Source: a virus. Taken from it: a stretch of 40,372 nt of DNA. Shown here piece by piece: positions 247 through 20,271 of the stretch (position 1 is its first letter; each line of letters opens with the position of its first letter). The position numbers and the translations under genes were made by a program. The notes under the pieces are model-generated. The model had not been told where the DNA came from and searched no databases. It saw only the letters and a list, made by a program, of their open reading frames with translations. The stretch covers positions 1 through 40,372 of IMG/VR virus record IMGVR_UViG_3300025011_000090; one strand, written 5' to 3'.

Positions 247-275
247 ACTATACATATTATGTTTAAAACTGTCAA
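247..275 (-). promoter_or_regulatory. Sigma70 promoter of the leftward operon
   Basis: On the minus strand TTGACA (270-275) and TATAGT (247-252) are separated by exactly 17 bases. It points at the gene starting at 178 and, through the contig join, at the whole 40372-35933 gene block. Unlike the accessory-gene promoters elsewhere, its spacer does not carry the AAATCTATATAGATTT palindrome, so it is probably controlled differently. Confidence 0.65.
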
Positions 276-943: not shown

Positions 944-949
944 GTTTTC

Positions 950-1023: not shown

Positions 1024-1088
1024 GTCTAAAAATCTTTAATTTAATATTTATAATCTGTTATTGAAATCTATAATCTATTATCCCGATA

Positions 1089-4033: not shown

Positions 4034-4399
4034 ATGGCAGCAGGAAGAAAAGTACAAGATGTTTTTCAGGAATTAGGGAATACTGAAATATATCACGAAA
4101 TAGATTTTAAATTTAATGCACCGCATCATTATATAGTTTTAAATAAGCATGAATGCAAAGAACCATTGGGTTTTATTAATTTTCAAGAAGGTGCAATAAG
4201 TGAAGTAGGCATAAATGGTGTTCAAAATATTGATTTACTAGCAATAGTAAAGAATAATCTTGAACATTTCCAAAAATCAGAATTTGCTTGTAGGGAAAAT
4301 GCTATTGCTATAACTCATATAGAAACAGCAATGGCATTTTTAGCAAAAAGAACTTTAGGCAGAATTCAAAGAAGTGTTGAGGGTACACATCAGGTTTAG
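4034..4399 (+). CDS. Tad1/Acb2-like signal-nucleotide sponge candidate
   Basis: 121 aa from the ATG at 4034; the in-frame GTG at 4019 is part of the leader element. An N-terminal strand-rich part (HHYIVLN, PLGFINFQEGAI, EVGINGVQNIDLLAIV) is followed by a helical hairpin with the sequence FACRENAIAITHIETAMAFL, AKRTLGRIQRSVEGTH. This C-terminal pattern is what I know from phage proteins annotated as Acb2/Tad1 hairpin-domain proteins. Characterised members bind the small signalling nucleotides made by Thoeris or CBASS immunity and so block the effector. Its place among small accessory genes fits an anti-defence role. Whether the ligand-binding residues are kept cannot be judged without a structure-based alignment. 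Confidence 0.6.
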   Translation: MAAGRKVQDVFQELGNTEIYHEIDFKFNAPHHYIVLNKHECKEPLGFINFQEGAISEVGINGVQNIDLLAIVKNNLEHFQKSEFACRENAIAITHIETAMAFLAKRTLGRIQRSVEGTHQV

Positions 4400-6267: not shown

Positions 6268-6296
6268 AGTATAAATCTATATAGATTTAATGTCAA
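6268..6296 (-). promoter_or_regulatory. Leftward accessory-gene promoter with palindromic operator
   Basis: TTGACA (6291-6296) and TATACT (6268-6273) are 17 bases apart on the minus strand. The spacer is occupied by the perfect palindrome TAAATCTATATAGATTTA (6272-6289). A repressor bound there would block polymerase. Close copies lie at 12821-12850 and 20243-20271, and a degenerate one at 10541-10569. Confidence 0.75.
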
Positions 6297-6358
6297 GATA
6301 CATATTTAATTTATGAAACTGTTTTTATATATAATATGTTACAGAATCAATTTAAATA

Positions 6359-6367
6359 TGTTATTAT
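6359..6367 (+). promoter_or_regulatory. Extended -10 promoter for the 6403 gene
   Basis: TGTTATTAT is of the extended -10 kind used for rightward genes. A second possible -10 (TATAAT, 6330-6335) lies upstream. AAAGGAG precedes the ATG at 6403. Confidence 0.4.
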
Positions 6368-6402
6368 TTAATAAAAGAGTGTTGCAATAAAGGAGTTTTA
6401 AA

Positions 6403-7029
6403 ATGGTTAATTTTAATGTCCCACAGGTTGTTTCTGATTTGTTAAAATCTTTAAATCCAACACAATCAGATTATATGGAAAAAGATTATTTTATAGAAAG
6501 GGAAGCTATTAAAGAAGCTATCGGCGCATCAACCGACACAGCCAACACAGACCCAGACGCAGATTCAACTCTTAGGTCTGATGTTAAAGGTTTGATTGAA
6601 AACACAACCAAAGAAAATCCTTTTAATACTGCTTACGGACAAATAGTTACCTCAATAGAGGAAAGCTTTTTAGCAAGAAAGCTTAGAGAAGGAAGATTCA
6701 GAAGAGTAGGTGTAACCTCGCAAGCAATAAATGGCACTCTTGTAGGAAAATCAATTAGAGGTGCGACAGCAGATACAGTATTTTATCCTAATAGATTATT
6801 TTTAAGTTCCAACGTAGCTTGTAGTGGTTATTTTGAAATAGTAACAGGTGTTGCAGATGCTGATACTATAAGAAGAAGTTATTCTTTACCAGCAGCAGGA
6901 GTTCAAGCGTTTGATTTGCCTGATGGTTATTATGTATTGCCAACAGGATCAGTAAACTCATACACAACAGCAACAAGTGGAACTTTAGATTTTGAAGTTC
7001 AAGGAGTTGAGGTGGCATATAATGGCTAA
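6403..7029 (+). CDS. Hypothetical protein, probably virion-associated
   Basis: 208 aa. The N-terminal 90 residues are helical and charged; the rest is strand-rich with small and aromatic residues (SRGATADTVFYPNRLFLSSN..., YYVLPTGSVNSYTTATSGTLDFEVQGVEV). This looks like a structural beta-sandwich of a virion or receptor-binding protein. It overlaps the SGNH hydrolase gene by eight bases, so they are translated together and may form one surface structure. No family is recognised. The nucleotide composition is less AT-biased around 6530-6560 than nearby genes. Confidence 0.45.
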   Translation: MVNFNVPQVVSDLLKSLNPTQSDYMEKDYFIEREAIKEAIGASTDTANTDPDADSTLRSDVKGLIENTTKENPFNTAYGQIVTSIEESFLARKLREGRFRRVGVTSQAINGTLVGKSIRGATADTVFYPNRLFLSSNVACSGYFEIVTGVADADTIRRSYSLPAAGVQAFDLPDGYYVLPTGSVNSYTTATSGTLDFEVQGVEVAYNG

Positions 7030-8317
7030 GATTCTTGAGTTACATCCTGCACAAGTCAGAAATACTTTAACAGGTTATCATCCACCAGAAAATAGAAAGT
7101 TTTATTCCAAATGGTTTGATTCATCTGGAAATAATAATCATGGTGTTTTAAATAGCGAACTATATTATTTTGATTCTCGTGGTGGATGGCTTGGTTCTTG
7201 GGATTTTAATAACTATTGGCACTTATATACAGGTCTTAATGGTTCTTATCTTGCAATACCAACATTAAATACAACTAATTTTCCACAAGCAGAAGGAACT
7301 ATTTTATTCAACATAAATGTAACAGAATGGACAAATATTAACCAAGCAATGATTTTTGGTTCTTTCGGTAATCAAAACATTTTTTGTCGTGTTAATCAGA
7401 CAGGAAGTGAATATGGATTACAAACTGGTTTTATAGGCTCTGATGGTGTTTATAAAGCTGTTATTGGTTTTGCAGATGCAGCAACAAATAGAATAACTAT
7501 TGGTGTTATTACCAAGATAGCTTTAAAATACAAAACAGGAGCAGGCGGTTATTTTGCACTATTTATTAATGGCGTTAAAGTTAAACAAGTAAGTATTTCT
7601 AATACAGAAACACCTATAAATCAACTATGTAATCTTGGAGGAAGTTCTTATACTGATAGAAAAAGGTATTATTATTTAATGATAGACAACACAGCATTGG
7701 CAGATCAAAGTATAATTGATATACAAAATGCAGATCAAAAAATACCAGAATATACTTTACCTTCATTAAATAAAACTTACGTTGCTATTGGTGATTCAAT
7801 CACATGGGCGTGTGCAAGTGGATTAAATTATCCAAATCTTTTACATGCTTATGTAAAAAATACTTACGGTAAAATGCAGTATTTAAATAAGGGTATTGGT
7901 GGAGAATGGGGTGGTGAGGCTGTAACTAATCTCCCTTGGACTGCTCTTTGTGCGGATATTGTTACAATTGCACTTGGTATGAATGATTGTGCAGGTGGTG
8001 GAAGTGGAACTGCTCTGTATAAAACAAACCTTGAAACTATTATTGATTATCTTAGGGTAAGAAATCCTGATGTAAAAATAATTCTCTGTACTCCATCTGG
8101 TACTTCTGATGCCAATAGAACTCCCTACATTGCTTCTTATAGAACCGCAATGCAGGAAGTGGCAACTGCAAAAAATACCTATATCTGTAATTTCCACGAA
8201 GCGGTTACGGATGCCAATATAGGTAGTTATTCTTCTGACAGCATCCATCCAAATACAGCAGGTCATGTTTTGTTAATGGCAAAATTACAGCCAATTATTG
8301 ATGAAATTTTAAGTTAA
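7022..8317 (+). CDS. SGNH/GDSL hydrolase with N-terminal lectin-like domain
   Basis: 431 aa from the ATG at 7022, which has GAGGTG upstream. Residues about 20-240 look like a laminin-G/concanavalin-type jelly roll (FDSSGNNNHGVL, TEWTNINQAMIFGSFG, YFALFINGVKV). Residues about 250-431 are an SGNH hydrolase: block I GDSIT with nucleophile Ser259, block II GIGGE, block III GMND, block V DSIHP with Asp406 and His409. The family removes acyl groups from lipids or polysaccharides. With a glycan-binding domain attached it probably deacylates a host surface polysaccharide during adsorption, or modifies the host surface. It is far from the tail genes, which is unusual for a tail-spike enzyme. Confidence 0.8.
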   Translation: MAKILELHPAQVRNTLTGYHPPENRKFYSKWFDSSGNNNHGVLNSELYYFDSRGGWLGSWDFNNYWHLYTGLNGSYLAIPTLNTTNFPQAEGTILFNINVTEWTNINQAMIFGSFGNQNIFCRVNQTGSEYGLQTGFIGSDGVYKAVIGFADAATNRITIGVITKIALKYKTGAGGYFALFINGVKVKQVSISNTETPINQLCNLGGSSYTDRKRYYYLMIDNTALADQSIIDIQNADQKIPEYTLPSLNKTYVAIGDSITWACASGLNYPNLLHAYVKNTYGKMQYLNKGIGGEWGGEAVTNLPWTALCADIVTIALGMNDCAGGGSGTALYKTNLETIIDYLRVRNPDVKIILCTPSGTSDANRTPYIASYRTAMQEVATAKNTYICNFHEAVTDANIGSYSSDSIHPNTAGHVLLMAKLQPIIDEILS

Positions 8318-8347
8318 GAGGATTTTAAAATTGAATAAAACACAAAC

Positions 8348-8367
8348 AGCCTCCGAATGGGGGCTTT
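8348..8367 (+). terminator. Terminator after the SGNH hydrolase gene
   Basis: AGCCTCC and GGGGGCT form a seven-base stem (one T-G) around GAAT, followed by TTTAATT. It separates the rightward unit from the convergent leftward gene ending at 8387. Confidence 0.6.
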
Positions 8368-8386
8368 AATTATGGAACATGCCGGT

Positions 8387-8983
8387 TTACTTTTGTTTAA
8401 TAAAGCTGAAAAAGGGTTTCTTTTCCTTTAACTGCTTATTTTCAGCTTCAAGATGCTTGTAATCTGTTTCAAGTTTAGCAAAGTTTATTTCAACTTCTTT
8501 AAGCTTTTCTAAAGTTTGTTTTTGTTCTGCTTGAAGTTCAATATAAGCTGTTTTTGTTCTATTTTCAGAATCTTCTAAAAGCATGGTTTTAGAAGAAACG
8601 CTTAATAATTCTTTATACACACTTTCATTTTGTTGATTAAGGTTTACTAATGTTGAATTAAAGCTTTCTGATAAAGCTATTACTTTAAATGCCAATTCTT
8701 CAGATGTAATATTGTTTTTTGGCTGCTTTCCACAACCTGATTCAACATTAATAAAATCTTCTTCAACTTGATTAAAGTTTTCTTCAACCTGATTAATGTT
8801 TCTTAAGCCATAAATTTTTATTAAATCGTTAAATTCATCTTCTGATAAACATATTACTTGTGTTGTTCGCCTGTTTATTATTTCATCAACTGTGTTCAAC
8901 TTGCCTTGTTTAATTTGATCTCTAATAGCTGTATGGCTAAGATTTATAATCTTTTCCAGCTCTTTAACTGTGTACTTTCTCAT
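8387..8983 (-). CDS. Replication- or maintenance-associated DNA-binding coiled-coil protein
   Basis: 198 aa. The N-terminus (MRKYTVKELEKIINLSHTAI...NTVDEIINRRTTQVICLSEDEF) looks like a MerR- or excisionase-type winged helix-turn-helix. From about residue 85 on it is a long coiled coil with heptads (LQAEQKQTLEKLKEVEINFAKLE). This arrangement resembles plasmid proteins of the DUF536/KfrA type that sit next to replication initiators. It is divergent from the initiator at 9238 and shares a 250-base control region with it. The sequence NQVEENFNQVEEDF is a small internal tandem repeat (about residues 64-77). A role in replication control or stable inheritance is inferred. Confidence 0.6.
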   Translation of the reverse strand: MRKYTVKELEKIINLSHTAIRDQIKQGKLNTVDEIINRRTTQVICLSEDEFNDLIKIYGLRNINQVEENFNQVEEDFINVESGCGKQPKNNITSEELAFKVIALSESFNSTLVNLNQQNESVYKELLSVSSKTMLLEDSENRTKTAYIELQAEQKQTLEKLKEVEINFAKLETDYKHLEAENKQLKEKKPFFSFIKQK

Positions 8984-9111
8984 ACTTTAATAAACCTCAT
9001 TAAACCCAAAACCACCTGAATAAACCACTTTAAGCTGCTTGACTAATATTGTAATCTGTATATCATGTTCATGTCGAATAAAAACCTTGTTATATTACAC
9101 AAGGTTTACAA
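8984..9111. promoter_or_regulatory. Divergent control region of the replication module
   Basis: Three imperfect copies of AATAAACC (near 8988, 8999 as ATTAAACC, and 9017) lie next to the leftward start. They could be short iterons. At 9083-9106 AACCTTGT and ACAAGGTT form a perfect inverted repeat around TATATTAC, which is also the -10 of a rightward TGTTATATT promoter, so a bound protein would shut it. TTATATTACAC here repeats the operator arms at 2675-2722. Confidence 0.45.
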
Positions 9112-9201
9112 ATGAATAAAACAAAAAAGCACTTCTTTCGGAAAAGAAGCACTTCTATAAACTCAATTAGATTGTACCACTTTCCGCAAGATTTGCAATA
9201 G
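9112..9201 (+). CDS. Leader peptide upstream of the replication initiator
   Basis: 29 codons (MNKTKKHFFRKRSTSINSIR...), with an ACAAGG site seven bases before the ATG, ending at the TAG 36 bases before the initiator start. Inside it, CTTCTTT-CGGA-AAAGAAG (9132-9149) forms a stable hairpin, and AAGCACTTCT occurs twice, 20 bases apart (9127, 9147). Plasmids such as those of the IncFII type control initiator synthesis by translation of a short leader and a hairpin. The layout here allows the same, by analogy only. Confidence 0.45.
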   Translation: MNKTKKHFFRKRSTSINSIRLYHFPQDLQ

Positions 9202-9237
9202 TTTCGTATGGGTAAAATTTTGGGAGGATTCGGAAGC

Positions 9238-10110
9238 ATGCAGAATGCGGTATTTGAGGCATTACAAGTTAATGTAAAATCTTTTAACATTGTTCGGGCA
9301 ATTACCGACAAAAACCTTTTTGGAAGAATTACACTTTCACCTACAGCAAGATTAGTTTTATTTAATTTAGCTAATATGTACAATCTTAAGAAGGGCTACA
9401 GCTTCCCTAAAATTAAAAAGTTAATACTTTGTACAGGAACAACAGAAAAAAGCGTTATTTCGGCTTTAAAGGAACTTAGAAATAAACATTTAATTGTTGT
9501 TTCAAAAGATAACGATAAAACGGAATATTATTTTACTAAAAATTTCTTCAATCTTTTGGAAATTTTTTCTGAAGAAACTGAAAATTTTTCTTCTCAACCT
9601 GAAAAAATTACAGGTACATGTATAGAACAGAAAAAAGAACAGATTAAAACAGATAATAATTTTTCTTTTAAAAATCTTTTAGATTTATTTAAAACTAATG
9701 CAATTGTTTATTTTGAAGAAATTTCAAATCTTTCAGAAGGTGATAAAGAACATTTATGCAAGATTAAGCTGAATAGAACCGCTTTAACTAACTTCCAGAA
9801 AGAAAACCTTGATAAATTTATAATGCTTTCTGAAAATGAAATAAATATAATTAATCAGAAAGAGCCTTATTTTAAGCAGGAAAACATTGATATTTATTAT
9901 AATTCCAGAATGAAGAAAATCAGAGAATATAAACAAGAGCCACAAAAAAATGAAGGGAAGCCACAAAAAAGTGAAAGGGAAGCAGTTTTATCAATGCTTA
10001 TATGCGGATATAAAGGATTTAAAAATAACAGAATGCAATTAACAACTTTCTTAAGCCGGAATAAAGCTAAAATGGAACAATTTAATATTACTGAATCAGA
10101 ATTACTATAA
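9238..10110 (+). CDS. Replication initiator-like winged-helix protein
   Basis: 290 aa from the ATG at 9238, chosen because GGGAGG lies ten bases upstream; an ATG at 9208 has no site. The N-terminal part (about residues 30-95) is a winged helix: LSPTARLVLFNLANMYN, FPKIKKLILCTGTTEKSVISALKELRNKHLIVV. This form is common in plasmid and phage replication proteins (HTH_36/DnaD-like). The middle is charged and helical; the C-terminal 50 residues (SMLICGYKGFKNNRMQLTTFLSRNK) may bind DNA or a helicase loader. Its divergent coiled-coil partner and leader peptide make a compact plasmid-type replicon. No polymerase or helicase gene was seen in the window, so host enzymes would do the synthesis. Confidence 0.6.
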   Translation: MQNAVFEALQVNVKSFNIVRAITDKNLFGRITLSPTARLVLFNLANMYNLKKGYSFPKIKKLILCTGTTEKSVISALKELRNKHLIVVSKDNDKTEYYFTKNFFNLLEIFSEETENFSSQPEKITGTCIEQKKEQIKTDNNFSFKNLLDLFKTNAIVYFEEISNLSEGDKEHLCKIKLNRTALTNFQKENLDKFIMLSENEINIINQKEPYFKQENIDIYYNSRMKKIREYKQEPQKNEGKPQKSEREAVLSMLICGYKGFKNNRMQLTTFLSRNKAKMEQFNITESELL

Positions 10111-10476
10111 GTCTTTTGGTGATATTGTCCAAATTTTAATTCCGTATTTATTGGCAACCGGAATAAGCCTGTTTAAATAAGTTTGATCTGAAGGTTGTTC
10201 TAAAATTAATAAAATACCTGCCTGTTTTCCTGTTTTTACGCTGTAATATAAGCTTTGTCCAATGCTTTCATATACTTTAGGGGCAAATTCAGCTTCTATT
10301 GCGTAATTATCAGTAAGACAATCAACACGAGTTTTATCAAGTAAATAAAATTCTGTGGTACCTTTTATTTCTGAACAAAATTTATTTTGATAAACCTTTT
10401 CTAAAAACAAGTGCTTTGCCTGTACTGGCATGCTGGCAATAATTAATATTGAAATAGTAATAAGTATTTTATTCAT
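10105..10476 (-). CDS. Exported nuclease-fold-like accessory protein
   Basis: 123 aa. MNKILITISILIIASMPVQA is a clear signal peptide with a likely cut before KHLF. The mature part reads KFCSEIKGTTEFYLLDKTRVDCLT, then AIEAEFAPKVYESIGQSLYY, KQAGILLIL and a C-terminal strand GIKIWTI. I associate the conserved Asp (RVDCLT), the acidic pair in AIEAEF, and the lysine and glutamine that follow with exported proteins that resemble PD-(D/E)XK nucleases. A periplasmic protein of this kind could attack or restrain incoming phage DNA, but function is not shown. It overlaps the 3' end of the initiator gene by six bases and faces a degenerate copy of the palindromic promoter. Confidence 0.55.
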   Translation of the reverse strand: MNKILITISILIIASMPVQAKHLFLEKVYQNKFCSEIKGTTEFYLLDKTRVDCLTDNYAIEAEFAPKVYESIGQSLYYSVKTGKQAGILLILEQPSDQTYLNRLIPVANKYGIKIWTISPKDL

Positions 10477-10540
10477 TATGCCCTACTTTCCTTTGCTAAT
10501 GTAGATAACAATAATTATACATTTATATAAATCTATGAAA

Positions 10541-10569
10541 AGTATAAATGTATATAGATGTATTGTATC
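10541..10569 (-). promoter_or_regulatory. Degenerate palindromic accessory-gene promoter
   Basis: A TATACT -10 (10541-10546) with spacer ATACATCTATATACATT matches the operator family with changed bases. The -35 (GATACA) is poor. It drives the exported protein gene at 10476. A half-site AAATCTAT lies next to it at 10529-10536. Confidence 0.5.
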
Positions 10570-10592
10570 ACATATTTTAAAAATAAGTGATA

Positions 10593-10601
10593 TGTTATAA
10601 T
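10593..10601 (+). promoter_or_regulatory. Extended -10 promoter for the Com-like and large terminase genes
   Basis: TGTTATAAT lies only seven bases before the ATG at 10609. The transcript would therefore start almost at that codon, giving a leaderless mRNA, unless the ATG at 10633 is used. Confidence 0.5.
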
Positions 10602-10608
10602 AAAATTT

Positions 10609-10764
10609 ATGATTCATTATAAAAGTAAAAATATGCATCACTTATTGTGTTGTAATTGTCGCAAAAGTTTTTATTTAAAGAAATTAAGTAAAAGAGTAAC
10701 AGGGTTATATTGTCCTAAATGCGGTAAATTAAGCGATATTACAACAATTCTTGTTCAGGTTTAA
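10609..10764 (+). CDS. Com-like zinc-finger protein
   Basis: 51 aa (43 if started at the ATG at 10633). Two cysteine clusters, CCNC and YCPKCGK, separated by about 20 residues, form a zinc ribbon like that of the Mu Com protein, which stimulates translation by binding RNA. Other small phage zinc ribbons are equally possible. It is co-directional with the large terminase gene 15 bases downstream. Confidence 0.55.
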   Translation: MIHYKSKNMHHLLCCNCRKSFYLKKLSKRVTGLYCPKCGKLSDITTILVQV

Positions 10765-10779
10765 TAAGGTTTATTAAAT

Positions 10780-12525
10780 ATGTTTAATGCTGCTGAAATA
10801 ATTCAAAGAAGAAAAGATTTATGGGTTGAAAATCAAAATATTCAGCTTGATAAAGAATATGTTAATTGTATTGCTGAATTTCTTTGTGATGCAACTAATC
10901 CAAATTCAGAGTTATTAAGGAAAGAAATTAAATTAAACCCTGAACTTTTAATTGAAATGGTTTTTGTTATTGTAGAAAAGGGTGATAATAGTCAAGAAGA
11001 TGCAAGAACTGTACCATTTTTTTTAAATAAAGTGCAAAAAAGTTTTGTTGATGATTTAAATATTGCAATAGAACAGTATAAAGCTGGATTAAGAAATTTT
11101 TTAAAATTTATAATATTAAAAGGTAGACAGCAAGGATTTACAAGTTTTATAACAGCTTATCAATTGGCTAGATGCATAACTAGCCAAAATTTTAGCGGAT
11201 ATACATTAGCTGATAATTCAGGGAATTCACAAGATATTTTTAATAAAAAGGCTAAATTCCCTTATGATAGTTTACCTGAATTATTAAAACCTACAGAGAA
11301 ATATAATACAAAAAATGACCTATTCTTTTCTGGTTTAAATAGTTCATGGAAGATTGGAACCGCTGAAGCAAAAGAAACAGGAAGATCGAAAACAATAAAC
11401 TTTTTTCATGGTTCAGAAAGTGCTTTTTGGATTTCAATTTCTAGTATTCTGGCTGGTTTAGGTGAAGCTATTACAAAATCCAGTATTCAAATACTTGAAA
11501 CTACAGGGAATGGTTATAATGAATTCAAAACTATTTGGGATGAGGCAGTTAAGGGTGAAAATAATTGGGAACCAAAGTTTTATGAATGGTGGCTAACTCC
11601 TGAATATAGACTTAATTTTGAAACTCATGAAATAGAGGAAAAATTTAAAGAACAAGTTGAAAATGAAGTAAATGATTTTTTCAAAACGCTTAACAGTTTG
11701 AGAATATATCAGGGCTTAGATTGGAATCAATTATATTGGTATGAAAACAAAAGAAAGGATAAAAAAGAATTACTACCGCAAGAATACCCTTGTACACCAC
11801 AAGAAGCTTTTGTTTCAACTGGTAGAAAATATTTTGATGCTTCAAAAATTAAAAATATGCTTATTATTGCAAGCAGTAAAAAGAAATTAGAATCAAAAGA
11901 TTTTGCCCATTTGGATCATCCATATTCAAAACTGTTTGATCCACCTTTAAGAGATGGAATGACTATTTATGATTATCCTAGAGTGGGGAAACACTATATT
12001 TTTGGTGCAGATGTTTCAGAAGGTCTTGATAATGATGCTTCGCATTGCAAACTTTTTGATTATGAAACAATGAGAGAAGTGGCACATATTCATGGGCAGT
12101 TTTCACCCGATTTATTTGGTGAATTAATAGTTAAATATGCAAAGCTTTACAACAATGCTTTTGGTGCAGTTGAAAGAAATAATCATGGTCATTTGACATT
12201 AGCTACAATTTATAAATATTTAGGTTATAAAAATATTTATAAAGAAATGGTATTAGATAAAACAAAAGAAAAAGAAACATTAAAACTCGGCTGGCTTACA
12301 ACTGAAAATTCAAAATATTTAATGTTAGATGAATTAGATACAGCAATTAGAGATGAATTAATTGAAATATATGATGAAGAATGTCTGAATGAATTATTTT
12401 CAGTTGTAACTGATAAAGATGGTAAGGTTAAAATTAATGGTAAGGATAGAACTGCTGCAAGTGCCATTGCTTATCAAATGAGAAAATTTTATAAAATTAA
12501 GAAAATTAATTTTGATGTTTTTTAA
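10780..12525 (+). CDS. Terminase large subunit
   Basis: 581 aa. The ATPase domain shows GRQQGFT (residues 115-121), the degenerate Walker A of the KARQxGF type common in large terminases, and a Walker B/catalytic region FFHGSESAFW with Glu213. The C-terminal RNase H-like nuclease has Asp411 (FGADVSEG), Glu465 (AVERNNHG) and Asp556 (KDRTAASA). It translocates DNA into the prohead and cuts it. An AAGG site precedes the ATG. The small subunit is not adjacent but at 1152. A hairpin (12533-12552) follows the gene and then a leftward accessory gene separates it from the portal. Confidence 0.9.
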   Translation: MFNAAEIIQRRKDLWVENQNIQLDKEYVNCIAEFLCDATNPNSELLRKEIKLNPELLIEMVFVIVEKGDNSQEDARTVPFFLNKVQKSFVDDLNIAIEQYKAGLRNFLKFIILKGRQQGFTSFITAYQLARCITSQNFSGYTLADNSGNSQDIFNKKAKFPYDSLPELLKPTEKYNTKNDLFFSGLNSSWKIGTAEAKETGRSKTINFFHGSESAFWISISSILAGLGEAITKSSIQILETTGNGYNEFKTIWDEAVKGENNWEPKFYEWWLTPEYRLNFETHEIEEKFKEQVENEVNDFFKTLNSLRIYQGLDWNQLYWYENKRKDKKELLPQEYPCTPQEAFVSTGRKYFDASKIKNMLIIASSKKKLESKDFAHLDHPYSKLFDPPLRDGMTIYDYPRVGKHYIFGADVSEGLDNDASHCKLFDYETMREVAHIHGQFSPDLFGELIVKYAKLYNNAFGAVERNNHGHLTLATIYKYLGYKNIYKEMVLDKTKEKETLKLGWLTTENSKYLMLDELDTAIRDELIEIYDEECLNELFSVVTDKDGKVKINGKDRTAASAIAYQMRKFYKIKKINFDVF

Positions 12526-12532
12526 AAGAAAA

Positions 12533-12552
12533 AGATGCAATTTCTTGCATCT
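12533..12552 (+). terminator. Hairpin after the large terminase gene
   Basis: AGATGCAA and TTGCATCT pair perfectly around TTTC just after the stop codon. No T-run follows, so it may protect the mRNA end or be a weak terminator. The next 50 bases hold purine-rich runs without an open frame. Confidence 0.35.
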
Positions 12553-12586
12553 AGTAGGAGATATTTCGGGGGGATTAAGGAGAGTT

Positions 12587-12769
12587 TTAAGCGTTTTTTT
12601 GTATTTTATTTTTTGAAAAGAACTGATTAATGCTTTTGTCCACTTCGGGCAAAAGACAAAAAGGTACCATTATTGCTAGGTATAAAGCTACAAATGGGGC
12701 TGCTACAAAACAGCATAAAATTAAACCAGTACAAGCTATAAAGCTTATTAAATCTTTCACTAAGTACAT
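12587..12769 (-). CDS. Small membrane accessory protein
   Basis: 60 aa from the ATG at 12769 with AAGGAA upstream. An in-frame GTG at 12790 belongs to the leader element (12779-12793). Residues about 6-48 are nearly all hydrophobic (FIACTGLILCCFVAAPFVALYLAIMVPFC in parts), giving one long or two short membrane helices, with a polar C-terminus. It is a single gene inserted between the large terminase and portal, behind the perfect TTGACA/TATAAT promoter with palindromic operator. Superinfection exclusion or membrane alteration is a reasonable guess. Confidence 0.6.
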   Translation of the reverse strand: MYLVKDLISFIACTGLILCCFVAAPFVALYLAIMVPFCLLPEVDKSINQFFSKNKIQKNA

Positions 12770-12820
12770 AAGTATTCCTTTTTCTTTCACAAATTTAAAT
12801 TATAAAATTTAACACACTTG

Positions 12821-12850
12821 ATTATAAATCTATATAGATTTTTTTGTCAA
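12821..12850 (-). promoter_or_regulatory. Leftward accessory-gene promoter with palindromic operator
   Basis: TTGACA (12845-12850) and consensus TATAAT (12821-12826) are separated by 18 bases, with AAATCTATATAGATTT (12826-12841) inside the spacer. Next to it on the portal side is TTTCAGAATTAAATT, related to half-sites elsewhere. Confidence 0.75.
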
Positions 12851-12943
12851 TATGTTTCAGAATTAAATTTTTATTTGTTACGGTTTTTTATAAAAATATG
12901 ATAATATTAATAAAAGAATACTGTATATAAGTGGTGTTTATAT

Positions 12944-14314
12944 ATGAATCTGTTTAAAGGCTTTAATATATTCAAAAAAAGCTGGGGTGGACAATCTTTT
13001 ATTGAAGAAGTCCTTTCGGGTTCTGCTTCCGAAAATGTAAATTTAACTACATATAAAGCTTTATTATATTATAAAATAATAGCCCCCATTGGTACATCAG
13101 TTGATATTATAACTGATGAATTCGCATCAATAAAGCCTGTTCTTTATAATAGAAAAACCAAAAAATTTGAATATTCTCATCCTGTATTAGATTTATTTGC
13201 AAATCCTAATGCTGATATTACATGGGGTGAATTTGCAAAAATGTATGCTGCCTATTATCTTCTTACCGGTAATGCTTATATTGCTACAACAGGAAATATA
13301 AATTCTATTCCTCTTGAACTCGAATTTATAGAAACTCAATTTGTGCAACCACGCAAAAGCAGCAAAGATAACTATATTGATTCTTATATGATTAATAATA
13401 GATGTTCTAATTTATTATTTCAGAGAGATGAAAACAAAGGAAGATTCAGATTTTATCAAAATGATGAACAAGAATTATTGCATGTAAAAACATTTAATCC
13501 TGATTCTGTTGATGGTTCTGGATTATCAATTTTAAATAAAGCATATTTAGATATAGAACAATGGTATGAAGGTTCAAAACATAATCGTTCTGTGTTGAAA
13601 AATGGAGTAAGAAGTTCAGGTGTTTTAAATTGTGAAGAATCACTTGAAAAAGAAGTGAGAAACAGAATAACAAATCAAATTAGAAACAATCATACAGGAT
13701 CTGATAATGCTGCAAAATTGTTTGTATTTGATGGCGCAAAATTTAGTTTTACACCTATGTCTGAATCAATGAAGGATATGGATTTCAAGGAACTTAAAAG
13801 AGAAGTAACCCTGTCAATATATACAGCAACAAAAATACCACTTCCTTTAATTAATTCCGAAAATATGACTTATTCAAATTATCAGGAAGCCAAATTAACG
13901 CTTTATGATAATACCGTACTACCTATAGCCAATAGATTATTTGAAGAATTGCAGAATTTCTTATTTCCTAGATATAAAGATTTAATGGGTGGTGATTGGA
14001 TTCTTACTTATAATGAAGATGATATTCCTGCTCTTGAACCACGCAGAAAACAAAAAATAGAATTCCTTACAAAATGTGATTTTCTTACTGATAATGAAAA
14101 AAGGTTACTTGTTGGATATGAGCGCATAACGGATGGGGATATAGTTTATAAACCTCAAAACTTAATACCTATTGGCATACCTATTAATCAGCCAACTAAA
14201 TCTGAATTTGTTGAAATTATGAAAAAACAAATAGATGCTTTTGGGAATAGAAAATTTTCTGATGAACAAATTAAAAATATTGCAGAAGAAAATTTTAAAG
14301 ATGAAGGTGTGTAA
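12944..14314 (+). CDS. Portal protein (HK97 family)
   Basis: 456 aa. SASENVNLTTYKALLYYKIIAPIGTSVDIITDEFASI, HPVLDLFANPNADITWGEF and LTGNAYIATTGN are characteristic of HK97-type portals, as is the middle section with FNPDSVDGSGLSILNKAY and VLKNGVRSSGVL. Twelve copies form the vertex ring through which DNA enters and the tail attaches. The C-terminus ends in a charged tail. GTGGTG is the only purine-rich stretch before the ATG. The gene abuts the next by one base (TAATG). Confidence 0.9.
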   Translation: MNLFKGFNIFKKSWGGQSFIEEVLSGSASENVNLTTYKALLYYKIIAPIGTSVDIITDEFASIKPVLYNRKTKKFEYSHPVLDLFANPNADITWGEFAKMYAAYYLLTGNAYIATTGNINSIPLELEFIETQFVQPRKSSKDNYIDSYMINNRCSNLLFQRDENKGRFRFYQNDEQELLHVKTFNPDSVDGSGLSILNKAYLDIEQWYEGSKHNRSVLKNGVRSSGVLNCEESLEKEVRNRITNQIRNNHTGSDNAAKLFVFDGAKFSFTPMSESMKDMDFKELKREVTLSIYTATKIPLPLINSENMTYSNYQEAKLTLYDNTVLPIANRLFEELQNFLFPRYKDLMGGDWILTYNEDDIPALEPRRKQKIEFLTKCDFLTDNEKRLLVGYERITDGDIVYKPQNLIPIGIPINQPTKSEFVEIMKKQIDAFGNRKFSDEQIKNIAEENFKDEGV

Positions 14315-15168
14315 TGGTTTTGAATAATTCAGAAAATGATATTAATAAATCTGCAACTAATGATTTAGCTAAAAAAATTAAGTTAGAAAATTCATTAAAA
14401 CCTTCTATTTTGAAAATGTTTAAATCTGTTGCTGATGATTTTGCAGTTTATTATAAAGTTACAGGTCAAATAATTGATTTAGAATATTGTAAAAGTGAAC
14501 TTATAGGTATTCTTAGAATTCATTACCGCAAATGTGTAAAGGATTTTAAAAAAACTATAAGAAATCAATTATTTAAAAGTTATGATCTTTCAGAATTTAA
14601 AGAATCTATAGAACAGGAAATTGATGTTGAAAAAGTAAGAGCAGAAGAAGAAAGAACCGATAATAAAATTGATGAAATCCTCATTGCCTTTCTTTTGCTG
14701 CTTTCTTTTAGACAAGCTGAATATATTTTAAAGACAACAAAAAATGATTTATATAATAATGTTCAAGATGTTATTGTTGAAGCTGTTAATCAGGGTGTGA
14801 ATCCGACAAATGTTGAAATAGCGGAAAAAGCAAAACAAAGATTTTTAAAATCATCAAAAGAAAGAATAGATACAATAGCCACTACTGAAACAAATCAAAT
14901 TTCAGAAAAAACTAAATTTACAGAAGCTGAAATATTGAATGCCAGTAATATTATTTTAAGTGATAGAAAGTTTAAAAAGAAATGGCATGCCGTATTAGAT
15001 GAAGTTACAAGAAAATGGCATGCTTCAGTAGATGGACAAGTGAGAAACTTAGAGGATCCGTTTATTGTAAACGGTGAAAGATTAATGCACCCATCAGATA
15101 CATCTTTAGGTGCATCATCTAGTAATATCATAAATTGCAGATGCGGTTCAGTTACTATTATTGAATAA
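14314..15168 (+). CDS. Head morphogenesis protein (SPP1 gp7/Mu gpF family)
   Basis: 284 aa. The N-terminal half is helical and charged. The C-terminal signature is ATTETNQISEKTKFTEAE, KKWHAVLDEVTRKWHASVDGQ, FIVNGERLMHPSDTS, NIINCRCGSVTI. Family members are minor capsid proteins bound to the portal that affect DNA ejection. A TAATG junction couples it to the portal. Confidence 0.85.
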   Translation: MVLNNSENDINKSATNDLAKKIKLENSLKPSILKMFKSVADDFAVYYKVTGQIIDLEYCKSELIGILRIHYRKCVKDFKKTIRNQLFKSYDLSEFKESIEQEIDVEKVRAEEERTDNKIDEILIAFLLLLSFRQAEYILKTTKNDLYNNVQDVIVEAVNQGVNPTNVEIAEKAKQRFLKSSKERIDTIATTETNQISEKTKFTEAEILNASNIILSDRKFKKKWHAVLDEVTRKWHASVDGQVRNLEDPFIVNGERLMHPSDTSLGASSSNIINCRCGSVTIIE

Positions 15169-15182
15169 AAGGAGTAAATATT

Positions 15183-15845
15183 ATGCCAAACTTACGGGAA
15201 AAAGGAAATTTTGAATTCAAACTAGAGATCAAAGCAGATGGTGTTTCTGAAGATGAAAATTTTCATTATATAAAAGGTTATGGTGCAACTTCTGATTTAG
15301 ATTTAGGTGGCGATATTATTCTGCCTGAAGCAATAGAAAAAGCATTAACGGTTAGAACACCTAAATTCTGTTATCAGCACAATATAAAACAAGTATTAGG
15401 TGTTTTTACTGTTTTAAGAAAAGATGTAAATGGCTTATATTTTGAAGCTAAAATGCCTAAAAGCGTACCACTTTGTAATGAAGTTGCCGAATTTATTAAA
15501 ATGGGTGCTTTGGATTCAATGTCTATCGGTTATTTTGTGATTGATAGAGAATGGAAAGATGGCGTTAGAGTAATAAAAGAACTTGAAATTTATGAAATTT
15601 CTGTTGTAACCATTCCTATGAATCCAAATGCTGTAATTACAGGCATTAAGGCATTAGAAGAAATTAAAACAATAGGTGATGTAGAAGAATTTTTAAAAGA
15701 AAAAGGTTTAACCTCTAACGATAGAAAAATTCTTATATCAAAAATAAAAGGATTGCAGGAAGTTAAAGAAGAAAATGAAACAGAAGAATTTGTTTTTTCT
15801 GATACAGATATTAAAAACATTTCATGTATATTAGAAAATATTTAG
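15183..15845 (+). CDS. Prohead protease (HK97 family)
   Basis: 220 aa. HYIKGYGATSDLDLGGDII opens the protease core. The catalytic His is His66 (YQHN) and the Ser is Ser114 in DSMSIGY, followed by ELEIYEISVVTIPMNPNA. It cleaves the capsid N-terminal scaffold domain during maturation. An AAAGGAG site lies nine bases upstream. The C-terminal 60 residues are acidic and helical and may bind the capsid delta domain. Confidence 0.9.
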   Translation: MPNLREKGNFEFKLEIKADGVSEDENFHYIKGYGATSDLDLGGDIILPEAIEKALTVRTPKFCYQHNIKQVLGVFTVLRKDVNGLYFEAKMPKSVPLCNEVAEFIKMGALDSMSIGYFVIDREWKDGVRVIKELEIYEISVVTIPMNPNAVITGIKALEEIKTIGDVEEFLKEKGLTSNDRKILISKIKGLQEVKEENETEEFVFSDTDIKNISCILENI

Positions 15846-15847
15846 TG

Positions 15848-15877
15848 TTGCAATTTTTATAAAAAGTCTGTTATATT
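15848..15877 (+). promoter_or_regulatory. Capsid gene promoter
   Basis: TTGCAA (15848-15853), 18 bases, TATATT (15872-15877) preceded by the extended TG. It starts within the stop region of the protease gene and gives the capsid gene its own transcript, as expected for a highly expressed protein. Confidence 0.5.
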
Positions 15878-15898
15878 AATATTATAATTTTTGCATAA

Positions 15899-15943
15899 CA
15901 ACGTGATGTTGAATTGCATAAAAAGATTGACAGCGTGATGTTG
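15899..15943 (+). repeat. Two copies of a small RNA hairpin upstream of the capsid gene
   Basis: CAAC-GTGAT-GTTG (15899-15911) and CAGC-GTGAT-GTTG (15931-15943) have the same five-base loop and the same 3' arm. The one difference in the stem changes an A-U pair to G-U, so pairing is kept. The direct repeat CGTGATGTTGAA is 32 bases apart, and TTGCATAA is also repeated in step. They lie in the capsid leader, upstream of the leader element (15964-15978) and TAGGAG. Paired hairpins like these are typical sites for an RNA-binding protein. Confidence 0.5.
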
Positions 15944-15995
15944 AAAATCTGGTAATTAAATTGTTTGTGAAAGAAAAATACTAGGAGTAAGTAAA

Positions 15996-17177
15996 ATGGC
16001 TGTAAATCCTAATGAAGTGGCAACACTTTTAGAAACACTTCGTAAAAAAACTGAAGAATTTAATAATGGTAATTCTTTAGTTCAAGAAGAAATTAAAAAA
16101 ATCAACTTAAAACTTGATGAATCTGAAAAAAAGAATCAGGAAGTAACTACAAAATTATTGGCAAAAGAACAATCTGAACTTGATTTAAAAGAAAAACTTC
16201 TTGTAGTAGAAAAGAAACTTTTCAGAATGCCATCCGGCATGAGTCCAGTTGAAAAAGCTGCTGAAATAAAAGCTTTTGAAAAATATGTTGTAGGTGGAAA
16301 AGCAGGGCTTGATGCTGAAGAACAAAAACTTTTAAGAACCGATTCAGATCCTAATGGCGGTTATTTAACCCCTGCTGAATATGTTCAGGAAATATTAAAA
16401 GGTTTATCTGATGTTTCCCCAATGCGTTCAATTTGCAGAGTAAGAAAAACTTCTAAAGGTTCAATAATGCAACCTTCAAGAAAAAACAGGGTTGGTTCTT
16501 ACTGGATAGGTCAAGCTAAACCGGCAACTGAAAGTGAATCTAATTATGGATTAGAAGAAATTAAATTAGGAAAACTTTCAGTATTCACAAAAATTTCAAG
16601 AGAACTTCTTGAAGATGCTTCATTTAATATGGAATCAGAAATTAATGCTGATTTCTTAGAAGAAATGGAAGTAAAAGAGGGTGCAGCGTTTGTAACAGGT
16701 GATGGAATTAATACACCTGAAGGATTGCTAACCTGTTCAAGTTTAACATCTATTAATTCAGGTTCTGCTAATGCAATTACAGCAGATTCTTTAATTAAAG
16801 TTGATGCTGAACTTAAAAAAGCCTACAAGCCTATTTTTGCATTAAACAGAAAAACTTTAGGAAGTATCAGAACCCTGAAAGATGCACAAGGTAGATGGTT
16901 GTTTACTCAAAGTCTTTCAGATGCAATGCCAAACACAATTAATGGCAGAAATTACATTGATATGCCGGATATGCCAGATGAAGGCGCAAATACATTCCCT
17001 ATTGTTTTTGGTGATTTCCTTCGTGGTTATACAATTGTAGATGCTACAAGATACAGCATGGTTAGAGATGCTTTATCATTGGCTGAATACGATTTAATTA
17101 AGTTTATCTTAATGTATCGTGTCGGTGGCAAGGTTGTTATGCCTGAAGCATTCAAAAAAATCAAATGTGCTACATAA
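15996..17177 (+). CDS. Major capsid protein (HK97 fold)
   Basis: 393 aa. Residues 1-90 are a coiled-coil scaffold (delta) domain (KKINLKLDESEKKNQEVTTKL). The mature fold begins about residue 105 (LLRTDSDPNGGYLTPAEYVQEIL), then SPMRSICRVRKTSKGS, TKISRELLEDASFNMESEI and FVTGDGINTPEGLL, ending in the A-domain region with VFGDFLRGYTIVD. These are classic HK97-type capsid motifs. The protease upstream would remove the delta domain. It has its own promoter, two leader hairpins, the shared leader element and a strong terminator after it (17205-17238). Confidence 0.92.
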   Translation: MAVNPNEVATLLETLRKKTEEFNNGNSLVQEEIKKINLKLDESEKKNQEVTTKLLAKEQSELDLKEKLLVVEKKLFRMPSGMSPVEKAAEIKAFEKYVVGGKAGLDAEEQKLLRTDSDPNGGYLTPAEYVQEILKGLSDVSPMRSICRVRKTSKGSIMQPSRKNRVGSYWIGQAKPATESESNYGLEEIKLGKLSVFTKISRELLEDASFNMESEINADFLEEMEVKEGAAFVTGDGINTPEGLLTCSSLTSINSGSANAITADSLIKVDAELKKAYKPIFALNRKTLGSIRTLKDAQGRWLFTQSLSDAMPNTINGRNYIDMPDMPDEGANTFPIVFGDFLRGYTIVDATRYSMVRDALSLAEYDLIKFILMYRVGGKVVMPEAFKKIKCAT

Positions 17178-17204
17178 TTAATAAACCTTAAATAGATAAT
17201 AGTG

Positions 17205-17238
17205 AATAAGGTGGTGCTAATCCCACCACCTTATTTTT
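17205..17238 (+). terminator. Strong terminator after the capsid gene
   Basis: AATAAGGTGGTG and CACCACCTTATT form a perfect twelve-base stem around seven bases, followed by TTTTAT. It likely lets only part of transcription pass on. Confidence 0.85.
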
Positions 17239-17301
17239 ATAAATTCAGAACAATACAGATAATTCAGTAATTTAGGTAAAAAGAAAGATAAGGATAAAAC
17301 T

Positions 17302-17697
17302 ATGACAACAAAAGATTTACACAATAACATTAAACCTGTAGTTGGTATTGTACCTACTCTTATGTCTACAAATTCAATAGCACTTGGTGATATTATTGAT
17401 CTACAAGGTTATGAATCAGTTGAATTTGTTAATCAAGTTAGTAGTTTTACTGATGGTGTTTATACACCAGTTATTAAAGAATCTGATGCTGCTAATATGG
17501 CAGGTGAAGCAGAAGTTGCAGATGCTGATCTTTTGGGAATAGAAGTTGCACATACCGCTGCTGGAATTAAAAAAATCGGTTATATCGGTAAAAAAAGATA
17601 TGTAACTTGTGATATAGCTTCAACAGAAGTAACCACAGGCGCAACAGTTACATCAACAGTAATTAAAGGGCATCCGGCAGTAGCACCAGTTGCATAA
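17302..17697 (+). CDS. Capsid decoration-like protein
   Basis: 131 aa, strand-rich: PVVGIVPTLMSTNSIALGDIIDLQGYESVEFVNQVSSFTDG in parts, then DADLLGIEVAHTAAGIKKIGYIGKKRYVTCDI. This matches small structural proteins found right after the capsid gene in many HK97-type prophages and thought to decorate or cement the head. It has an AAGGA site and lies between two terminators, so it is an almost independent unit. Confidence 0.6.
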   Translation: MTTKDLHNNIKPVVGIVPTLMSTNSIALGDIIDLQGYESVEFVNQVSSFTDGVYTPVIKESDAANMAGEAEVADADLLGIEVAHTAAGIKKIGYIGKKRYVTCDIASTEVTTGATVTSTVIKGHPAVAPVA

Positions 17698-17721
17698 ATT
17701 TATTATTCGTTAGTTAGATAT

Positions 17722-17754
17722 AAATAAGGGTGGGTTTATCGCCCACCTTTATTT
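17722..17754 (+). terminator. Terminator after the decoration gene
   Basis: AAATAAGGGTGGG and CCCACCTTTATTT pair over 13 bases (one G-U) around TTTATCG. The U-rich end is part of the stem. Confidence 0.75.
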
Positions 17755-17778
17755 ATAAATTAAGAGGAAAAAAATAAC

Positions 17779-18417
17779 ATGGTTTTGAAATTTAACAAAG
17801 ATCAAAAATGGAAAATAAAAGGTGATTTTTTTGATTTTGAAAATGAAGCCGAAGTTCCTAAAAATATTCCTGAAGAAATTCTTAATCAAATGATAGAACA
17901 TGATTATGTTTATGATCCTGATAAACCAGTTGAAGTTGATGAATCTTTAAGTTTAGAAGATTTGGAAAAATCACTTCAAGAAGCTTTAGATGCTGACAAA
18001 AAAAATGATAATTTATCAGAAAAAGAAATTGTTCTTGCTGAATTTGAAAAGCTTGGTATCAATGCTGATAAAAGATTAGGTATTGATAAATTAAAAGAAC
18101 AGCTTGAAGAAGCTAAAGAGAATATTGCTAAAAAGGCTTTAATTGTTGAAGAATTAAAAACTTTAGGTATTGAAGTTGATGAATCTTTAAGTTTAGAAGA
18201 TTTGGAAAAATCACTTCAAGAAGCTAAATTAGGAAAAGAAAGAAATCTTCTTATTGATGCACTTATTTCAAAAGGTAAAGACGCTTTAGGGCTTGAAGAT
18301 AAAACAACTGATGAGCTTAAAGCAGAGTTTGTAATAATTGCCGGCAAAGAATTTGACGATTTGACAGATGAAGAGCTTGCAGAAATTAAAACTGTTGCTG
18401 AAGAAGTTGAAGAATAA
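17779..18417 (+). CDS. Acidic repeat protein of the head module
   Basis: 212 aa. The N-terminus (VLKFNKDQKWKIKGDFFDF...NIPEEILNQMIEHDYVYDP) is a small domain often encoded between capsid and connector genes. The rest is very acidic with repeated HeH/LEM-like helical units (LSLEDLEKSLQEA, GIDKLKEQLEEA, TTDELKAEF). One unit is duplicated exactly at DNA level: 17930-17985 equals 18170-18225 (56 bases, 240 apart). The acidic helical character suggests a scaffold- or DNA-mimic-like role, unproven. AGAGGAA lies upstream of the ATG. Confidence 0.55.
   Translation: MVLKFNKDQKWKIKGDFFDFENEAEVPKNIPEEILNQMIEHDYVYDPDKPVEVDESLSLEDLEKSLQEALDADKKNDNLSEKEIVLAEFEKLGINADKRLGIDKLKEQLEEAKENIAKKALIVEELKTLGIEVDESLSLEDLEKSLQEAKLGKERNLLIDALISKGKDALGLEDKTTDELKAEFVIIAGKEFDDLTDEELAEIKTVAEEVEE
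17930..18225 (+). repeat. Exact 56-base direct repeat inside the acidic protein gene
   Basis: 17930-17985 and 18170-18225 are identical at all 56 bases while the DNA between has diverged copies only. Identity at synonymous sites points to a recent duplication or gene conversion. Recombination between the copies would remove 240 bases, 80 codons, in frame. Confidence 0.85.
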
Positions 18418-18439
18418 GGGTTAAACCCTTATTCTTTTT
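18411..18439 (+). terminator. Terminator overlapping a stop codon
   Basis: AGAATAAGGG and CCCTTATTCT pair perfectly around TTAAA, followed by TTTTG. The 5' arm includes the stop codon of the acidic protein gene (18415-18417). Confidence 0.8.
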
Positions 18440-18451
18440 GAGGAATAAAAA

Positions 18452-19045
18452 ATGTATTATGAAATAATAACACCACCTTCTAATTTGCCTGTTTCTTTAG
18501 ATACAGTAAAAATGCATTTAAAATTAGACAGTGGAACTTATGAAGATACTTATTTAACAAGTTTAATCAAAGCAGTTGCTTCTTTTGGTGAAAAATATAC
18601 CGGAAGGGAATTTTTAACAAAAACTTCTAAACTTTATCTTGATTCTTTACCTTCCGGCATGGAAATCGAAAAATCAAAATTACAAACAATTGATGAAATT
18701 AAATATTCTTTTGGTGGTGTATTCATATCATTAACTTCTTTAGATTATTCTATTATTAAAGATAATCTTTATTCAAAAATATACTTAAATAATTCTGTTG
18801 CAGTTATATCAAGTGATATTCCGCAAGGTGTACAGATAACTTTTAAAGCCGGATATGGTACAGCAGAAACTAATTTACCTGATGATATAAAACTTGCTAT
18901 GCTTCATCATATTAATAAAATATATGCATCAAGAGGTGATTCAGAAGAAAATTTAGGTGCTATGTCAAGTATTATATCAAGTAATTTACCACTAGAAGCA
19001 CTTCAGGTTTATAATCTTTATAAAATTGAGGATATTTCTATATAA
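18452..19045 (+). CDS. Head-tail connector (gp6-like)
   Basis: 197 aa. ITPPSNLPVSLDTVKMHLKLD, YLTSLIKAVASFGEKYTGREFL and the C-terminal VQITFKAGYGTA...LPDDIKLAMLHHINKIYASRGD are the pattern of HK97 gp6/Phage_connect_1 adaptor proteins that bind the portal ring. TGAGGA lies upstream. It shares a base with the next gene (TAATG). Confidence 0.85.
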   Translation: MYYEIITPPSNLPVSLDTVKMHLKLDSGTYEDTYLTSLIKAVASFGEKYTGREFLTKTSKLYLDSLPSGMEIEKSKLQTIDEIKYSFGGVFISLTSLDYSIIKDNLYSKIYLNNSVAVISSDIPQGVQITFKAGYGTAETNLPDDIKLAMLHHINKIYASRGDSEENLGAMSSIISSNLPLEALQVYNLYKIEDISI

Positions 19046-19431
19046 TGCGTGTTCAAAGAATATCAGGAAATCATAAAAAAATTGATACTGGTGAATTGAA
19101 TAAAAGAATCACAATGAATTTAAGATCAATTCAAGCACCAATATCAGGTGTTGATTTTGATGAAAAAATGATAAATGAAACTTCTCTTTGGGCAATGATG
19201 AAATCAATTTCGCCAGTTGAAATTGTAAATGGTACTAACATTGCAGGAATTGCAACGCATTTAATTGGTATTAGATATAGAACTGATGTTACTTCTGAAA
19301 ACTGGATAAAATACGATAATAAATTTTATAAAATATTAACTACAGATGATGGTATAACCAGTAATAAGACTTTTTTACTTATGTATTGCTGCTTGCGTGG
19401 CACAGCAGATAATGAAGTAAATTATGTTTAA
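19045..19431 (+). CDS. Head closure / head-tail joining protein
   Basis: 128 aa. ELNKRITMNLRSI, ETSLWAMMKSISPVE, THLIGIRYRTDVTSENWIKYDNKFYKIL match the SPP1 gp16-like head-tail joining family (stopper). It follows the connector directly by a TAATG junction and overlaps the next gene by eight bases. Confidence 0.8.
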   Translation: MRVQRISGNHKKIDTGELNKRITMNLRSIQAPISGVDFDEKMINETSLWAMMKSISPVEIVNGTNIAGIATHLIGIRYRTDVTSENWIKYDNKFYKILTTDDGITSNKTFLLMYCCLRGTADNEVNYV

Positions 19432-19855
19432 TTTCAAAATAGATACCAATGCAAGAAAGGTTGAGGTGCAAATTTTAGCGGCACCAAAAAACCTTCAAAA
19501 TGGAATCAGGCAGGGTTTTTATAAACTTGGTAAGTATCTTGTTAAAACTGCTTCTGATGGAATAATAAAATCACCTAAAATTGGTAATAGGTATTATTAT
19601 TCTGGTCATGAAAGAAGGGGTAAAAAAGGTTTTTGGACAAAATCAGGTGCAGTTGGTGCTTATCCTGCAAATCAAACAGGGTTTTTAAGAAGATCATTAG
19701 GATTCAATGTTATTGGCAATAGAAAAATGGAATTTGGTTTAAAAGCAAAATATGCGCAATATGTAGAAAAGGCAAGACCAGCTTTAAAACTTACTGTTTT
19801 AAATGATCTTGCCCATCAATATAAAATTATGCGTGATGCATCAAATATAATGTAA
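19424..19855 (+). CDS. Neck / minor tail protein (HK97 gp10 family)
   Basis: 143 aa. LGKYLVKTASDGIIKSPKIGNRYYYSGHERRG, AYPANQTGFLRRSLGFNVIG, GLKAKYAQYVEK are typical gp10-like features. It is thought to link head completion and tail. It ends immediately against the convergent leftward gene (stop codons at 19855 and 19856 touch). Confidence 0.75.
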   Translation: MFNFKIDTNARKVEVQILAAPKNLQNGIRQGFYKLGKYLVKTASDGIIKSPKIGNRYYYSGHERRGKKGFWTKSGAVGAYPANQTGFLRRSLGFNVIGNRKMEFGLKAKYAQYVEKARPALKLTVLNDLAHQYKIMRDASNIM

Positions 19856-20188
19856 TTATTCGCTTTTTAATTCAGTAGAATCAATAACATTACTATAATT
19901 TACGGTTCTTGGTGAAAGTAATTTACCATTAAAAGCATAAGCTTCTACTTTTCCATTTTTATCAATACTAAATATGATTTCAGCAGAAGTTAATGCTTTT
20001 TCTGCTTCAGTTCTTTTTTTATCAGATGAAAAATCTATTTTATTTAAATCTATTTTTTCATTCGTAAAAGTTTGTTTAACAAGTATTCTATTACGGCTAT
20101 AACTATATTTTTTTGATGCTTTTTTTCTTCTTAATAATTCTGTTCTTAGTTCTTCTTCAGATAATGTTGATAAATCAAGGTTTGACAT
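19856..20188 (-). CDS. Leftward accessory protein, unknown
   Basis: 110 aa, soluble, charged. The N-terminus LSTLSEEELRTELLRRKKASKKYSYSRNR is helical and basic; the C-terminal half (IIFSIDKNGKVEAYAFNGKLL) looks like a small strand domain. AAAGGG precedes the ATG. It stands alone between neck and tail genes, behind the clearest palindromic promoter of the genome (20243-20271), so it is an inserted accessory gene. No family is recognised. Confidence 0.6.
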   Translation of the reverse strand: MSNLDLSTLSEEELRTELLRRKKASKKYSYSRNRILVKQTFTNEKIDLNKIDFSSDKKRTEAEKALTSAEIIFSIDKNGKVEAYAFNGKLLSPRTVNYSNVIDSTELKSE

Positions 20189-20242
20189 GTTTTTGCCCTT
20201 TCATATAATACATTTAAATATTTATTAATGAATCTAATTAAA

Positions 20243-20271
20243 AGTATAAATCTATATAGATTTATTGTCAA
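20243..20271 (-). promoter_or_regulatory. Leftward accessory-gene promoter with 20-base palindromic operator
   Basis: TTGACA (20266-20271), 17 bases, TATACT (20243-20248). The perfect palindrome ATAAATCTATATAGATTTAT spans 20246-20265. This is the best-preserved copy of the family. Confidence 0.8.

Follow-up and report, generated by a model that had tools for sequence, protein, structure and literature searches.

In this study, we propose that several accessory genes of the virus record IMG/VR IMGVR_UViG_3300025011_000090, analyzed over its whole length of 40,372 nucleotides (the window), are controlled through one common operator. The putative operator is a perfect 16-bp palindrome, AAATCTATATAGATTT, of which the window holds three exact copies. 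All three fill the 17- or 18-bp spacer of a minus-strand TTGACA...TATA[AC]T promoter, and the arrangement described in an earlier note on this DNA (TTGACA-N17/18-TATACT or TATAAT with the palindrome inside the spacer) is exact in each case (Table 1; genes are named by the position of their start). The family is real and exceeds chance, because three copies of a 16-bp palindrome were never reached in any of 300 sequences generated from the window by an order-3 Markov model (the maximum was two, once), and the pattern TTGACA-N16-18-TATA[AC]T was absent from 271 of them and occurred once in the other 29. The window contains four such matches, three of which are the palindrome-bearing promoters, and the promoter at 12850-12821 matches the consensus at 12 of 12 positions. 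Measured from the final -10 base, the ATG lies at a distance of 52, 52 and 55 for these three promoters and 65 for a degenerate copy at 10541-10569.

Conservation is concentrated on the site itself. Among the four leftward promoters, the core (the last 24 bp through the end of the -10) is 83-96% identical, whereas the flanks (54 bp upstream and 70 bp downstream) share only 26-56% identity. A conserved core within unconserved flanks favors selection on the site over the copying of a cassette. The palindrome reaches into the first bases of the -10; beyond the 16-bp core the bases match the leftward promoter hexamers and the symmetry ends. Such a two-fold symmetric site overlapping a promoter is the arrangement expected of a dimeric-repressor regulon.

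To collect weaker members of the family, we derived a symmetric weight matrix from the three exact copies and applied a threshold of 12 bits. Six intergenic sites score above it (20245, 12823, 6270, 903, 10543 and 3944) versus 0.18 expected at intergenic composition, and the independent additions among them are 903, 10543 and 3944. Only a single match falls in a coding region (29073), with intergenic DNA making up 9.5% of the record, which is 70% AT. Three of the six intergenic sites lie in consensus promoters and three at weaker promoter-like sequences. The degenerate copy at 10541-10569 had been recognized before as a family member; it does carry an operator-like sequence and a TATACT, but lacks TTGACA and has a weak -35. 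The 903 site had been read as a half-site (906-920) over the promoter of a small RNA. Its overlap with the -35 of that rightward promoter-like sequence (TAGACT-17-TATAAT) holds, but it is a 22-bp match rather than a half-site. Genuine half-sites, consisting of the -10-proximal half by itself, are present at 6037 and 10526.

The placement of the sites is likewise non-random. An operator-like site is found 54-67 bp from the start in four of the five isolated leftward units, and when six sites were placed randomly in intergenic DNA, four units were reached (a site within 120 bp of the start) in only 26 of 20,000 trials. These four leftward units stand amid rightward genes, each with its own promoter-like sequence, as is typical of morons. 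The suggestion that leftward genes set into the rightward gene order carry the palindrome thus applies to most of them, with the isolated gene 8983 and the promoter at 275-247 as exceptions. The description of the family as leftward promoters is too narrow, since sites also occur at rightward promoter-like sequences, namely those of the small-RNA locus and the Acb2/Tad1-like gene. We also observed a rightward promoter-like match (12/12) over the start codon of the leftward gene 20188 (20182-20209), which may be due to chance.

Table 1. Operator-like sites, promoters, the candidate small RNA, start leaders and associated open reading frames (ORFs) in the window.
Feature	Position	Strand	Remarks
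Promoter TTGACA-N17-TATACT, AAATCTATATAGATTT in spacer (6273-6288)	6268..6296	-	serves 6216, possibly 5992
Promoter TTGACA-N18-TATAAT, AAATCTATATAGATTT in spacer (12826-12841)	12821..12850	-	serves 12769
Promoter TTGACA-N17-TATACT, AAATCTATATAGATTT in spacer (20248-20263)	20243..20271	-	serves 20188
Degenerate operator-like TATAAATGTATATAGATGTATT (20.2 bits), TATACT, weak -35, no TTGACA	10541..10569	-	serves 10476; half-site 10526 adjoins
Operator-like TATAAATCTATATAGACTAATA, 22-bp match, 21.4 bits	903..924	.	overlaps -35 of rightward promoter-like site 915-943
Weaker operator-like site, 13.2 bits	3944..3965	.	overlaps -35 of rightward promoter-like 3952-3980; upstream of gene 4034
Strong leftward promoter TTGACA-N17-TATAGT, without palindrome	247..275	-	upstream of left-end leftward gene run (178 on)
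Candidate small RNA, 76 nt	949..1024	+	promoter-like site 915-943; terminator hairpin 993-1016; contains TTTTTCTTTCACAAATT
TTTGTGAAAGRAAAA-type leaders	1105, 2040, 4016, 4419, 15964, 23284, 23707	+	starts 1152, 2061, 4034, 4438, 15996, 23316, 23728
TTTGTGAAAGRAAAA-type leaders	205, 12793, 36677	-	starts 178, 12769, 36657
ORF, 53 aa	6055..6216	-	no family
ORF, 156 aa	5522..5992	-	one N-terminal membrane segment (read by eye); C-terminal match to phrog_13160, phage domain, function unknown
ORF, 123 aa	10105..10476	-	signal-peptide-like N-terminus (read by eye)
ORF, 60 aa	12587..12769	-	very hydrophobic, membrane-like (read by eye)
ORF, 110 aa	19856..20188	-	no convincing relative
Acb2/Tad1-family nucleotide-sponge protein (anti-CBASS/anti-Thoeris)	4034..4399	+	downstream of 3944 site; PDB 8kbb E = 1.3e-26
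Isolated helix-turn-helix (HTH) + coiled-coil protein	8387..8983	-	no palindrome at own promoter; candidate regulator or plasmid-type DNA-binding protein

Based on these observations, we prefer a model in which a single homodimeric repressor, probably encoded by the phage, uses the palindrome as its operator; the accessory promoters would be active by default and silenced during lytic growth. We assign this model a probability of about 0.55. Bound in the spacer, the repressor would cover the DNA that RNA polymerase contacts between -35 and -10, and near-consensus sigma-70 promoters would be shut by occlusion. Their default activity would express short accessory (moron-type) genes in a lysogen or in the carrier state. 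Repression would most likely set in during lytic growth, or once the repressor itself exceeds a certain level in a Cro-like manner, and would prevent leftward transcription from opposing the rightward late genes. The weaker copies may confer looser control by the same protein on the promoter-like site at 915-943 and on the site before the Acb2/Tad1-like gene.

The homologues of 10476 may bear on the polarity of this control. They share 44-50% identity with it and occur in Nitratiruptor phages and in Dulem virus 31. A single small gene separates the Dulem virus 31 homologue from the CI repressor gene that precedes it in the same direction, and the homologue of Nitratiruptor phage NrS-2 is close to an annotated phage repressor; these neighborhoods suggest expression in the lysogen. 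The taxonomy lists Dulem virus 31 itself as a microvirus, a label that looks wrong since its 35.8-kb record encodes a terminase, a tail sheath and a tape measure.

The closest contender reverses the polarity. Under it, the sites would be operators of an immunity repressor, shutting promoters in the lysogen that open on infection and serve early takeover, anti-defense or superinfection genes, as P1 C1 does. We regard this as rather unlikely, although it accounts well for the site before the Acb2/Tad1-like gene, near-consensus promoters fit early genes, and phage P1 with its 22 dispersed C1 operators is a precedent (PMC8546580). It is less easily reconciled with the run of left-end genes from 178 to 35933, which is long and has a strong promoter lacking a site, or with the repressor genes that adjoin the 10476 homologues in other phages. 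Lysogeny-type products, the antisense position and these homologues together lead us to favor promoters that are on in the lysogen over an immunity repressor by roughly two to one.

It is improbable, in our view, that the regulator is a host protein and that the phage took over host operators, tying its accessory genes to a host signal. Phages are well known to capture host repressors in the SOS-type manner, which offers a precedent, and no phage regulator was recognized among the proteins scanned. Yet the promoter-operator combination had no match in any other of 2.9 million viral contigs, and the exact palindrome, found in 67 other viral-contig stretches, never stands in this promoter context there. 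Still more improbable is a reading without any regulator, in which the repeat is just the strong core of a constitutive promoter, multiplied by recombination or convergence in AT-rich DNA. The composition of the record and the recurrence of the -10-proximal half by itself at 6037 and 10526 could be explained in this way, but not readily the perfect 16-bp symmetry in all three copies, including positions that the promoter does not need, nor the unrelated flanks, nor the lack of a palindrome in promoter-like matches of comparable strength (275-247 and 20182-20209). Two further designs were rejected. Spacer-binding activators of the MerR type work on spacers lengthened to 19-20 bp; the spacers here are 17, 18 and 17 bp and, being already optimal, do not need the palindrome for activation. 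A bidirectional promoter with symmetric -10s is contradicted by the right-hand flank of the palindrome, which is not conserved as a -10.

Several points weigh against the model of a lytic-phase repressor. The Acb2/Tad1-like gene, expected to be early lytic, has a weak site, which suits an immunity repressor better, and the strong leftward promoter at 275-247 has none. The matrix scores of the three best sites are not independent, the matrix being made from them. No C1/CI-type repressor match was obtained among the proteins scanned, a set that did not include every ORF, and the strong-operator promoters drive no recognizable DNA-binding protein, so autoregulation is not visible. In addition, no relatives showing conservation of the palindrome were found among viral contigs, genomes, phages and plasmids. 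The idea of a regulon under one dimeric regulator, put forward in the earlier note, is therefore partly supported: the promoters, otherwise unrelated, have a palindromic site in common, but no relative attests to its conservation. The large-terminase relatives retrieved carry neither the palindrome nor the start-leader motif described below.

These terminase relatives, in viral contigs and Firmicutes prophages, are only 47-49% identical. A DNA search of phages with positions 1-20000 gave no match, and scans with the capsid and CobA proteins found no close relatives. Overall, no close relative was present in the viral contigs, genomes, phages and plasmids searched, sets outside which records very near the window may fall. 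Relatives of the endolysin, capsid and sheath suggest Gram-negative phages, and those of the terminase suggest Firmicutes.

As for the regulator itself, the protein 178/40164, named as a candidate in the earlier note and spanning the record ends, shows a weak match to Pfam HicB (E = 0.12, window part only), and a single-sequence AlphaFold model of its N-terminal part gives one helix at low confidence (predicted local distance difference test score, pLDDT, 64). Together they lend weak support to a putative ribbon-helix-helix regulator. The protein at 38072 (37791-38072) had no family match. The HTH + coiled-coil protein 8983 is another candidate, with a low-confidence structure prediction; its weak SopA similarity hints at plasmid-like maintenance. 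Its gene is divergent from a replication-initiator-like gene and has repeated GGTTTATT words just upstream (8387-9207).

A second putative layer of control is RNA-based. The locus 949-1024 folds at -22.4 kcal/mol compared to -8.6 for shuffles (z = -6.0), and its TTTTTCTTTCACAAATT is complementary to a start-leader motif, TTTGTGAAAGRAAAA. Allowing at most two mismatches, this motif has 17 matches versus 2.3 expected. It has 11 close copies: ten precede a start codon by 4-33 nt, and the remaining one lies antisense within the small-RNA locus. The roughly ten leader-bearing genes encode, among others, the small terminase subunit, a recombinase and the capsid; the gene that directly follows the tail sheath and the first of the left-end genes also belong to them. 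The leaders of 15996 and 23316 have a separate AGGAG after the motif, and the motif is therefore more than a ribosome site. Since ranking targets by whole-length duplex folding was noisy (large loops are allowed), exact complementarity was used instead: in the window outside the locus itself, stretches of at least 13 bases perfectly complementary to the 949-1024 RNA occur in start leaders only. This makes the RNA a candidate trans-acting regulator of phage genes. Alternatively, the locus could be an attenuator leader of gene 1152 or a functionless inverted duplication of a leader. In other viral contigs, the leader motif stands before a start codon in 22 matches, essentially as single copies in the DNA examined, and thus does not recur as a signal in them.

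Through the operator-like site at 903, the small RNA may belong to the accessory-gene regulon. Tentatively, then, both elements could form a two-layer circuit, in which a palindrome-binding regulator controls the accessory promoters and the small RNA, the RNA pairs with the TTTGTGAAAGRAAAA leaders of about ten genes, and one protein and one RNA set the timing of lysis or lysogeny. We consider such a circuit possible, but somewhat doubtful.

The closest analogues are the C1 operators and c4 RNA of P1, the dispersed sites of L5 and the start-associated sequences of cluster K. The P1 C1 operators are 17 bp long and asymmetric (ATTGCTCTAATAAATTT, n = 22; PMC8546580). As in P1, one repressor-type site, with binding predicted here, recurs at several promoters across the genome; P1 also has a second, RNA-based layer (c4 antisense RNA), as the candidate small RNA may provide here. 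The present sites differ from the C1 operators in that they number six, stand mostly before accessory genes and, in the best cases, form perfect 16-bp palindromes within the spacer; the three strong ones do not conform to a P1-type asymmetric 17-bp site. L5-type (cluster A) mycobacteriophages have more than 20 asymmetric sites, which are 13 bp long, serve a monomer, are oriented with transcription and often lie outside promoters (PMC9283540). Dispersal through intergenic spaces is common to both systems. In contrast, the sites described here are symmetric, with their intergenic copies at promoter-like sequences, and they do not qualify as stoperators. STMMW_20121 of ST64B is a prophage accessory gene that lies antisense to lytic genes and has its own promoter (PMC7067206), as do the accessory genes here; it is a single unit, whereas several units here have one operator in common. 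Cluster K mycobacteriophages carry start-associated sequences, short repeats just upstream of many start codons, for which the partner was left open (PMC3203893). TTTGTGAAAGRAAAA holds the same position just before starts, but its sequence differs and a complementary phage locus is present.

Other features of the record were noted alongside. An ORF runs across the record ends (1 and 40372), which makes a circular or circularly permuted genome probable even though a search for terminal repeats found none. The non-coding region 399-710 contains repeated CACAATTCG and CGAATTGTG words in both orientations, which could represent an origin, a further operator array or a partition site. A patatin-like phospholipase (34072-35022), encoded two genes ahead of the phage lysozyme, matches CBASS-type effector models (PADLOC), and the left-end leftward gene run includes a cob(I)alamin adenosyltransferase (CobA/BtuR; 37238-37789).

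If the preferred model is true, viral accessory genes would be wired into one regulon by a common operator instead of relying on independent promoters each. If the pairing is true as well, the phage-encoded RNA would be a concrete candidate partner for start-associated repeats. The operator, the complementary small RNA and the leaders would then provide a sequence handle on the separation of accessory, early and late expression.

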